A DNA stretch of 33,331 nt from Thermoanaerobaculia bacterium. Its GTDB lineage: Bacteria; Acidobacteriota; Thermoanaerobaculia; Multivoradales; JAHEKO01. The stretch spans positions 1-33,331 of the forward strand of contig CALZKB010000062.1 of the NCBI GenBank assembly GCA_945787575.1. The letters run 5' to 3'. This document shows, piece after piece, positions 6,362-8,910 of the stretch (position 1 is the first letter of the stretch; every line of letters starts with the position of its first letter). The position numbers were made by a program, and so were the translations under genes. The notes under the pieces are model-generated. The model searched no databases. It was not told the DNA's origin and worked only from the letters and a program-made list of their open reading frames with translations.

Positions 6362-8053
6362 ATGCCGCTCAAGACAACTCTTTCCTCGACGCTCGTCGTC
6401 CTCGCCGCAATCCCCGCGTGCACCACCCCGGAGATCGGGCCGGCCGAAGAGTCCGCTCAGGGACCCAGTGACGAGGCGCTTGCGGCCGCCTCCACGATCG
6501 ACTCAGCCAGCCTTCGAGCCACAATCGCGGAGCTCGCCCACGACGCTTACGAGGGCCGCGGTCCCGCTTCCCCCGGAGACGCGAAGACCCAGGCCTACCT
6601 CGCCTCTGCCCTCGAAGACCTCGGTTACTCTCCGGGCGCCGCCGAAGGTGGCTGGCTGCAGTCCTTCGACGTGATCAGCGTCACCGCCTCGGCTCCCTCG
6701 ACCTGGCGGTTCGAGGGATCCGGCGGGGCGCTGGAGCTCGCCTATTGGGAGGAGTTCATCGCCGCCTCGGGGGTGCAGGAGCCGAAGGCGACGATCGACG
6801 CCGCGGAGGTCGTCTTCGTCGGATACGGCATCGAGGCTCCGGAGTACGGCTGGGACGACATCGCGGGCCAGGACCTTGCCGGCAAAGTCCTCCTGATGCT
6901 CAACAACGACCCGGACTGGGATCCCAAGCTCTTCGCGGGGGAGCGACGCCTCTATTACGGACGTTGGACCTACAAGTACGAGATGGCGGCTCGGCTGGGC
7001 GCCGCGGGCGCGATCCTCATCCACACGACGCCTTCGGCGGGCTATCCCTACCAAGTCGTTCAGAGCTCCTGGACGGGGCCGCAGTTCGAGCTTCCCGCCG
7101 AAGGTCAGCCGACGGCGGCCGTCGAAGCTTGGGTGACCGAGGAGGCGGCGCGAAAGCTCGTCGCACTGGGCGGCCACGATCTCGAGGAGCTGCTCGAGGC
7201 GGCGCGGAGCCGTGATTTCGAACCGGTGCCGCTTGGCGTGACGACCTCGCTCGAGCTCGAGAACGAGGTCTCCCGCGTTCAGACCGCCAATGTCGTGGGC
7301 TTCCTGGCCGGCAGCGACCCCGAGCTTGCCGACGAAGTGGTCGTCTTCACCGCCCATCACGATCACCTCGGAGTCGGCGAGCCCGACGAGAGCGGAGACG
7401 CGATCTACAACGGCGCCCTCGACAACGCCGCCGGAGTAGCCCAGATCGTGGCGGTCGCTCGGGCGATCCGAGCACTCCCGGCGCCACCGAGTCGATCGAT
7501 CCTCGTGCTGTTCGTCGCCGCGGAGGAGCAGGGGCTGCTGGGCTCCGCCTACTACGCCCGCCACCCCACGATCGCGCCGGGAAAGATCGCCGCCAACATC
7601 AATCTCGATGGCGGCAACATCTGGGGCAAGACTCGCGACGTCGCCTACATCGGCTACGGCAAGTCGAGCCTCGACGCAGTCGTCGAGGAGGCCGCCGCCC
7701 ACCAGAGTCGGACCGTCGTCGGCGACCAGTTTCCCGATCGCGGCTACTTCTACCGTTCAGACCAGTTCAACTTCGCCCGGATCGGAGTACCGGCGATCTA
7801 CCTCGACGTCGGCTCCGACTTCGTCGATCGGCCGGCAGACTGGGGCCACGAGCAGATCGAGGCGTGGGAGAGAGATCACTACCACCAGCCGAGTGACGAG
7901 CTCGAGGACCTTTGGAACTTCGACGGTATGGTCGACGACGCTCGCCTCGCCCTCTTCTGCGGCCTGGCGATCGCCGAAGCCGACGCGATGCCGACCTGGA
8001 ACGAGGGCGACGAGTTCGAGGCGGCCCGGCTCGCGGCCCTCGGTATCGACTGA
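6362..8053 (+). CDS. M28 family zinc metallopeptidase with PA domain, exported
   Basis: A 563-residue protein with a textbook AGGAGG (6352-6357) before its ATG. The N-terminus (LKTTLSSTLVVLAAIPAC) is a signal peptide with a lipobox-like Cys20, so it is probably a lipoprotein. A protease-associated domain lies at about 140-270. The M28 domain (about 300-540) shows the ligand set: H332 in TAHHDHLG, bridging D354 in ALDNAAG, catalytic E388 and adjacent E389 in AAEEQGLLGS, D416 in NINLDGGN and H508 in HYHQPSDE. Family members are aminopeptidases or related amide hydrolases in the periplasm or outside the cell; the exact substrate is unknown. This is one of the few plus-strand genes here; the hairpin element begins 27 bp after its stop. 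Confidence 0.93.
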   Translation: MPLKTTLSSTLVVLAAIPACTTPEIGPAEESAQGPSDEALAAASTIDSASLRATIAELAHDAYEGRGPASPGDAKTQAYLASALEDLGYSPGAAEGGWLQSFDVISVTASAPSTWRFEGSGGALELAYWEEFIAASGVQEPKATIDAAEVVFVGYGIEAPEYGWDDIAGQDLAGKVLLMLNNDPDWDPKLFAGERRLYYGRWTYKYEMAARLGAAGAILIHTTPSAGYPYQVVQSSWTGPQFELPAEGQPTAAVEAWVTEEAARKLVALGGHDLEELLEAARSRDFEPVPLGVTTSLELENEVSRVQTANVVGFLAGSDPELADEVVVFTAHHDHLGVGEPDESGDAIYNGALDNAAGVAQIVAVARAIRALPAPPSRSILVLFVAAEEQGLLGSAYYARHPTIAPGKIAANINLDGGNIWGKTRDVAYIGYGKSSLDAVVEEAAAHQSRTVVGDQFPDRGYFYRSDQFNFARIGVPAIYLDVGSDFVDRPADWGHEQIEAWERDHYHQPSDELEDLWNFDGMVDDARLALFCGLAIAEADAMPTWNEGDEFEAARLAALGID

Positions 8054-8080
8054 CCTCGACGCGGGCGACCTTCCTCTCAC

Positions 8081-8229
8081 GTGGCCGGGGGACTCGTGCC
8101 CCCGGTCGGTCCAACATCGACTGATCGTGTCGGCGCGCGTCCGGCGGATTCAGGCGAAGAAAGCCCTTTCCTCCGGATGGCCAGCCCATCCCAACCCCAT
8201 CCGGAGGAAACCCCTTTCTTCGCTTTGAC
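8081..8229 (+). repeat. 149-bp structured repeat element, copy 1
   Basis: This copy lies 27 bp past the M28 stop. In order it holds hairpin A (CCGGGGG 8085-8091, 7-nt loop ACTCGTG, CCCCCGG 8099-8105), an unpaired linker containing the block CGGCGCGCGTCCGGCGGATT, an outer stem (AGGCGAAGAAAG 8152-8163 with CTTTCTTCGCTT 8214-8225, one G-T pair) and an inner 14-bp perfect stem (TTTCCTCCGGATGG 8167-8180 with 8197-8210) closing a 16-nt loop CCAGCCCATCCCAACC. The same element occurs inverted at 8407-8555. By eye about 121 of 149 positions agree, without net indel. No known element family was recognised. Confidence 0.9.
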
Positions 8230-8406
8230 GATCCGTACGGTTTCAGTTTCTGCGGCGATTACTCTCCATCAGTTGTAGCGCGAAGCCCGTCCAGCACGGT
8301 TCCAACTCCACCTGCCAGAAACCGTCGACGGACGATTGTAGGCTCGACTACCGCTCAGACCAGGTAGCGTCGAGCGACCACGGGAGAAGCTGCACCTTTC
8401 CGAACT
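8230..8406. other. 177-bp spacer between the two inverted element copies
   Basis: No gene is supported here. The spacer contains its own inverted repeats: ACGGTTTC (8237-8244) with GAAACCGT (8318-8325), and GCTCGAC-TACC (8342-8352) with GGTA-GC-GTCGAGC (8363-8375). With its flanks, the whole 8081-8555 stretch could fold into a single large cruciform. No transposase or target-site duplication is visible. Confidence 0.6.
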
Positions 8407-8555
8407 GTCAAGGCGAAGAAGGGGTCTTTCCCAGACTGGGGTTGGGACGGGCTGGCCAGTCTGGGAAGGAGGGCTTCTTCGCCTGAATCCGCCGGACGCG
8501 CGCCGGGACGATCAGCCGAAGGCGAACCAACCGGGGGCACGAGTCCCCCGGCCAC
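8407..8555 (-). repeat. 149-bp structured repeat element, copy 2 (inverted)
   Basis: Reverse-complement copy of the 8081-8229 element, lying 89 bp beyond the stop of the CDGSH gene and in the same orientation relative to it as copy 1 has to the M28 gene. Hairpin A is identical (8531-8551). The outer stem pairs 8411-8421 with 8474-8484. The inner stem pairs TTCCCAGACTGG (8428-8439) with 8456-8467 around a 16-nt loop that differs from copy 1 at one base. The stem sequence is very different from copy 1 yet still fully paired over 12 bp. Confidence 0.9.
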
Positions 8556-8644
8556 CGTGAAGCTCGTTTTCGAAGCGCCGCCGGGGCGGAGCCTCGACAG
8601 ACGAACCGAAGCGGAGGGCCCGGCAGCCGGTAGAGAAACGAGGG

Positions 8645-8884
8645 CTAGTCGAGGCCGGCGTGACTCCCGTCGCAGAGCGGCTGGTTGGCGGTGTGCTTGC
8701 AGCCACATAGCGCCATTCTTCGGCGCTCCTCGACCTCGACGACTTGCGGCCTGAACTCCGACCCCTTGTGGGAACCGTCGCAGAACGGCTGATTCGCGGA
8801 TTGGCCGCATGAGCACCAGAAGTAGGTTCCCGGCTCGAGCTCGAGAACGTAGGGCATTGGCTGGGCGATCTTGGGGTCGGGCAT
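8645..8884 (-). CDS. Double CDGSH-type iron-sulfur protein
   Basis: A 79-residue protein with two complete CDGSH motifs: CSCGQSANQPFCDGSH and CGCKHTANQPLCDGSH. In this family three Cys and one His per motif hold a redox-active, acid-labile [2Fe-2S] cluster. The tandem arrangement resembles the two-motif (Miner2-like) subgroup. The ATG at 8884 is preferred over the GTG directly before it because GGAG then lies six bases upstream. It follows the adenosine deaminase family gene by 26 bp on the same strand and is probably the last gene of that operon. The physiological partner is unknown; electron transfer or cluster delivery are the usual proposals for the family. Confidence 0.9.
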   Translation of the reverse strand: MPDPKIAQPMPYVLELEPGTYFWCSCGQSANQPFCDGSHKGSEFRPQVVEVEERRRMALCGCKHTANQPLCDGSHAGLD

Positions 8885-8910
8885 CACGATCTCCTTGTCC
8901 TCGCGGGGTG

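Follow-up and report, generated by a model that had tools for sequence, protein, structure and literature searches.

A REP/BIME-type repeat whose REPIN-like inverted ends enclose an unusually long structured spacer in the genome of a Thermoanaerobaculia bacterium

Introduction

REP sequences are among the commonest repeats in bacteria, and both their spread and the cause of the pairing in their hairpins are unsettled. One genome with 19 diverged copies of a single long hairpin, flanked on either side by a neutral yardstick, makes it possible to distinguish between re-copying of hairpin arms and selection acting on either RNA or folded DNA. Among the closest described systems, GTAG REPs carry a GTAG tag, form HH dimers, possess structured spacers and lie at convergent or tandem locations, and the associated REPtrons can be missing in species (PMC3733652). 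Cleavage of single-stranded REPs depends on the GTAG (PMC8266576), and the REPIN units of Pseudomonas fluorescens carry compensatory hairpin changes (Bertels and Rainey 2011, PMC3116915). The present study describes a repeat found in a 33,331-nt stretch of Thermoanaerobaculia bacterium DNA (contig CALZKB010000062.1; hereafter the window), together with its relatives in the same genome.

Results

Anatomy of the element

A sequence-only reading of the window had described two collinear, inverted 149-bp copies with about 28 differences, and gapless alignment of positions 8081-8229 with the reverse complement of 8407-8555 returned exactly 28. Its statement that the loop of the inner hairpin was nearly unchanged while the stem had changed on both sides was also borne out, with a single base change in the 16-nt loop (8188) and the remaining hairpin differences located mainly in the arms, mostly affecting both members of a pair. 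The arms of the two hairpins were placed at 8154-8180/8197-8223 and 8411-8439/8456-8484, with those of copy 1 extended to 8152-8180 and 8197-8225 in the map of the element (Table 1). The inverted similarity of the two halves extended to 184 nt at 77%. Folding of positions 8075-8560 (486 nt) gave a z of about -19 against dinucleotide shuffles as single-stranded DNA, and likewise about -19 against shuffles as RNA, the latter being a very stable fold. The features of the element and the main forms of the family are listed in Table 1.

Table 1. Features of the element in the window, and full-length and minimal copies in the genome
Feature	Position	Strand	Remarks
Whole element	8081..8555	.	475 bp; inverted half-elements, GTGG tags outside (HH-dimer / REPIN-like)
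REP-like terminal hairpin	8081..8105	+	GTGG-CCGGGGG-ACTCGTG-CCCCCGG
Linker, module A, half-element 1	8106..8151	+	ends GGCGCGCGTCCGGCGGATTC
Inner hairpin H, copy 1	8152..8225	+	arms 8152-8180 / 8197-8225; loop 8181-8196 (C-rich, conserved)
Distal arm, module B, degenerate copy	8226..8264	+	
Central spacer between half-elements	8265..8371	.	107 nt between arms
Distal arm, module B, good copy	8379..8411	-	GGTGCAGCTTCTCCC
Inner hairpin H, copy 2	8411..8484	-	arms 8411-8439 / 8456-8484; loop 8440-8455
Linker, module A, half-element 2	8485..8530	-	
Second REP-like terminal hairpin, inverted	8531..8555	-	
Flanking M28 peptidase gene	6362..8053	+	ends 27 bp before the element
Flanking CDGSH iron-sulfur protein gene	8645..8887	-	convergent with the M28 peptidase gene
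Full-length copy, C62 (the window)			475 bp
Full-length copy, C8			455 bp
Full-length copy, C79			468 bp
Minimal palindrome	C165:13023-13050		
Minimal palindrome	C190:7428-7455		
Minimal palindrome	C6:97081-97118		
Minimal palindrome	C197:900-937		
Minimal palindrome	C140:4659-4687		

A modular repeat family

The sequence-only reading had tied its hairpin to the existence of copies beyond these two and to retained pairing in them, and had proposed a covariance-model search of the genome and its relatives. A nucleotide search of the genome from which the window comes (5.59 Mb in 484 contigs) yielded 37 matches to the 184-nt unit, and the covariance model recovered 19 copies of the inner hairpin H, with pairing kept. 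The terminal motif R, GTRG followed by CCGGGGG-ACCCGTG-CCCCCGG, matched the genome 50 times at ≤3 mismatches, whereas the reversed control pattern matched nowhere; among 64 loosely scored R hits the tag was GTAG in 47 and GTGG in four. The matches proved to be modular, with R followed by linker A (form ..GGCGCGCGTCCGACGGATTC), then by hairpin H, and lastly by distal arm B (form GACGG..GGTGCAGCTTCTCCC). In the feature map, three full-length elements had the module order R>A>H>B..B<H<A<R<, with some modules degenerate; the 149-bp unit is therefore one half of an inverted pair, and its two copies in the window are the halves of a single, almost fully palindromic element. As such, the unit described from the window alone was real, but the outer GTAG/GTGG-tagged hairpin that defines the element had not been singled out. 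Of the affiliations then offered, the REP kind agrees with the tagged terminal hairpins in inverted pairs and with a family of at least 50 R copies.

Shortened forms, representing deletion derivatives, were present on five contigs (C99, C141, C103, C105 and C325). In addition, a second subfamily of 398-417 bp shared the R ends but contained different inner modules and hairpins (398 bp in C37; 417 bp in C1). Its copies, some of them partial, were observed at L073 413-810 (C37:15412-15809), at L071 1964-2177 and on C1, C73, C165, C45 and C17, and its long inner hairpin (CGAGAGAGGGATGAG..) encloses about 110 nt of conserved sequence that may be a captured fragment of a gene. At the other extreme, minimal palindromes of 28-38 bp consisted of R fused to its own mirror image, alone between genes; single tagged hairpins also occurred alone, with many singlets beside inverted doublets. 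Two wider R-bounded inverted pairs, on C339 (1.56 kb) and C165 (3.4 kb), were considered as a candidate autonomous element and rejected, as they enclose ordinary genes.

Genomic location and empty sites

Gene context was derived from a simple codon-usage gene caller, which misses small genes such as the CDGSH gene. Among 57 gene pairs holding an element, 35 were convergent, 19 tandem and three divergent, compared with five, 55 and 14, respectively, among 74 pairs without an element at the same loci (Fisher p = 8e-12, with control pairs drawn from the element loci and not from the whole genome). No copy lay within a gene called in this way, and 60 of the 63 sites adjoined at least one gene 3' end, in line with the earlier remark that the copies lie just past gene ends. 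This strong preference, together with the stability of the RNA fold, would suit a functional 3'-end RNA element, that is, a bidirectional terminator or mRNA-stabilising hairpin of convergent genes under RNA-level selection, whose loop binds a protein or RNA. A search for U-run intrinsic terminators returned none, which argues against this explanation.

Two full-length copies, those in the window and on C8, correspond to short empty junctions in a sister species. In the sister genome G002, about 3 nt separate the stop codons of the M28 peptidase and CDGSH genes, versus 591 bp here, and the convergent small protein and pyrF genes of the C8 locus are 56 bp apart, versus 570 bp here. The latter gap is short in most other relatives and longer in G008 (678 bp), G023 (265 bp) and G006 (183 bp). 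In G001, which belongs to the same genus, the M28-adenosine deaminase junction (C51, ~12.6-15.0 kb; L122 / L139) accommodates an additional gene as well as a palindrome of another sequence, GTAGCCG..CGGCTAC, and G001 may have a REP-like family of its own.

Inspection of the flanks of the full-length copies by eye gave no apparent target-site duplication. The long inverted arms, the size of ~400-475 bp and the modular deletions would also be expected of a MITE, namely a DNA transposon derivative that ends in long terminal inverted repeats and depends on a DDE transposase instead of a RAYT. The conserved tag and small hairpin, which are typical of REPs, and the occurrence of lone tagged hairpins and lone 28-bp palindromes speak against such an origin, as may the lack of a duplication visible by eye. 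A DDE-driven MITE is improbable.

Occurrence outside the genome

Searches of 147 related genomes by DNA, pattern or covariance model did not detect the repeat family, apart from two weak single hits. One, in G031, was a weak three-mismatch pattern hit and the only pattern match among the relatives. The other, in G017 (same family; L181, G017:C90:184-260), was a weak covariance-model hit with a GGGGTCTTCCCAGGC / GCCTGGAAAGACCCC stem and a C-rich loop, which probably arose by chance. The repeat was likewise not found in collections of genome contigs and viral contigs (exact pattern) or in plasmids, and a search of 40 genomes for the palindrome GTAGCCGG..CCGGCTAC revealed nothing above control level outside this genome. 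The family seems to have expanded recently in this species. Its absence from relatives that retain the same convergent genes is a further point against a 3'-end RNA function. Known RNA families were also considered: Rfam gave no match above the curated threshold, again to the disadvantage of the RNA explanation, and its four sub-threshold matches (three of them to microRNA families) were taken as chance; no tRNA or tmRNA was found.

Covariation and the conserved loop of the inner hairpin

Alignment of 18 H copies over the 29-pair stem showed 90.8% of cells paired, compared with 80.3% after shuffling and at most 56% in slid structures. Both-side changes affected 13 pairs and a total of 73 cells, against 29.7 such cells after shuffling, and the covariation score was 0.330, versus at most 0.130 in slid structures. 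The stem base and the loop were conserved, with mean pairwise identities of 0.973 and 0.855, respectively, whereas the upper stem reached only 0.584. The hairpin family with a conserved loop and covarying stem proposed from the window is therefore upheld. The flanking arms had a mean pairwise identity of 0.58-0.64, the same as the upper stem, which keeps its pairing nonetheless; this part of the stem is therefore free to drift as long as its pairs are retained.

The sequence-only reading had taken the covariation as strong evidence of selection on a hairpin in RNA or single-stranded DNA, a claim that needs to be softened on two grounds. First, selection for pairing at the RNA level would favour G-U intermediates, and none were favoured: one-side changes inferred on the H tree led to G-U six times and to A-C six times, and the R stems contained 13 G-T and 17 A-C cells. 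The covariation thus does not specifically support RNA, and this counts against the 3'-end RNA element, which is nevertheless favoured by a conserved loop in a single orientation in all 16 copies with distinct arms; overall, that explanation is unlikely. Second, template switching is known to yield both-side changes (PMC8794818). Single-stranded DNA structure or re-copying of arms by template switching fits the covariation at least as well as RNA does, which is a leaning rather than proof because the numbers are small and the tree-based parsimony is rough, mismatched ancestors being reconstructed at times.

If template switching at a quasi-palindrome re-copies the arms in the absence of selection, the covariation of the stem would have no function. 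This explanation, which is compatible with a mobile element, accords with the flank-like divergence of the upper stem, with the few G-U intermediates and at least 12 both-side Watson-Crick swaps on single branches of the H tree, including transversions among close copies, and with the documentation of the process (PMC8794818; quasipalindrome mutation papers). Conservation of the loop and the stem base is contrary to it, and template switching can invert loops, yet the loop was inverted in none of the 16 directional copies. On balance, purely functionless covariation is a serious possibility with somewhat less than an even chance.

The other strand of the loop is G-rich, reading GGGGTTGGGATGGGCTGG or GGGGTAGGGGATGGGCTGG, and its G4Hunter score was 1.28-1.84 in every copy, while 1.2% of background windows reach 1.2; with no fourth GGG run on this strand, quadruplex formation is no more than possible. 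Tentatively, and with a rather low probability, the inner hairpin might be a second, independent recognition structure, in which a dedicated factor binds the conserved 16-17-nt C-rich loop, whose other strand is G-rich and quadruplex-prone. If so, mobility or a gene-end function would depend on two different folded signals.

Candidate transposases

The genome harbored 13 RAYT-like Y1 genes, which in NCBIfam scored highest against the REP-associated tyrosine transposase, with 39-60 bits (cut-off 80); RAYT-like proteins are encoded, for example, at C28:21809-22156 and C242:7373-7747. Among those scanned, none had an R core beside it. As R was not detected beside the RAYT-like genes examined and none of the genes reached the cut-off, no REPtron is shown. 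Moreover, neither a transposase-bearing element with R ends nor a linked IS was found, and membership of IS200/605 proper, another affiliation suggested earlier, is therefore unsupported. The genome's best match to the REP-transposase model was a 207-aa Y1 protein (L152 1396-2019, C28) containing the motifs DHLHWL and YLLANAVAGGLV, and the REP core did not lie beside its gene. Short direct-repeat arrays were observed upstream of RAYT-like Y1 genes (L031, L032, L034, L035, L036, L037 and L040); these repeats differ from gene to gene (e.g., CCAATGAAGTGCC, GGGATGAAAGTACT and CCCCGAAGAGGTCC) and may be the recognition sites of the adjoining Y1 transposases. Since none of the RAYT-like genes examined has an adjacent copy of the repeat, a RAYT acting in trans is proposed as the mover from the tag-plus-hairpin design and the literature.

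Discussion

Taken together, the element probably belongs to the palindromic, non-autonomous mobile repeats of the REP/BIME type (REPIN-like) and would be mobilised as single-stranded DNA through a RAYT acting in trans. Two inverted REP-like ends, each a hairpin with an unpaired GTAG/GTGG tag, enclose a large spacer of mirrored modules, among them the 29-pair hairpin with its conserved C-rich loop. Under the proposed model, when the locus becomes single-stranded, a trans-acting Y1 HUH transposase of the RAYT type would read the terminal tag and hairpin, cut beside the hairpin and join the strand elsewhere. Copies would persist chiefly at convergent gene ends, where promoters are not harmed, and the long inner stem would stay paired either by working as folded single-stranded DNA, or through replication errors that re-copy one arm, or both. 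Spacer length, the modest copy number and the fact that neither a target duplication nor an excised intermediate was seen weigh against this reading, as do the lack of the terminal motif beside the RAYT-like genes examined and their scores below the REP-transposase cut-off. The family also shows that the modular, structured cargo between REP-type ends can greatly exceed the usual 20-100-bp spacer.

Comparison with known systems

Like GTAG REPs and their HH dimers (Di Nocera 2013, PMC3733652), the present repeats place an unpaired GTAG/GTGG tag immediately ahead of a short, GC-rich stem-loop whose stem (7 bp) and loop (7 nt) agree with published size ranges; they also form inverted pairs with the tags at the outer ends, contain structured spacers and comprise subfamilies with complementary stem changes. 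As in that superfamily, they are dispersed, extragenic and multi-copy within one genome, and convergent and tandem sites are preferred over divergent ones (35/19/3), but here convergent sites outnumber tandem ones. They differ further in the element spacer, which at ~425 bp is far longer than the customary 20-100 bp and has 29-pair hairpins of its own, and in that a RAYT flanked by the same REP (a REPtron) was not found among the RAYT-like genes examined. REPtrons can be missing (PMC3733652), so that this feature is not an absolute requirement.

Similar to the REPINs of Pseudomonas fluorescens (PMC3116915), an inverted REP doublet forms one large hairpin with compensatory changes, and singlets resemble decayed doublets; in contrast to REPINs, the full length is 455-475 bp rather than ~71-110 bp, copies are fewer and no adjacent RAYT was found. 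Given the long spacer and the lack of a linked RAYT among the genes examined, neither the label of canonical REPtron-linked REP nor that of standard REPIN is warranted. Unlike IS200/IS605, no Y1 transposase is encoded between the ends. The terminal inverted repeats of degenerated GTAG-1 units in Pseudomonas (PMC3733652, Fig. 8) also combine a GTAG unit with a second, unrelated stem-loop in many copies, although some of those flank transposase genes and none was found to do so here. As in the BIMEs of E. coli, inverted REPs and other short motifs form an intergenic mosaic, but the modules and sequences are unrelated and the inner hairpin has no named counterpart in the literature compared. What is new here is a REP/BIME-type element that combines REPIN-like inverted ends with an unusually long structured spacer.
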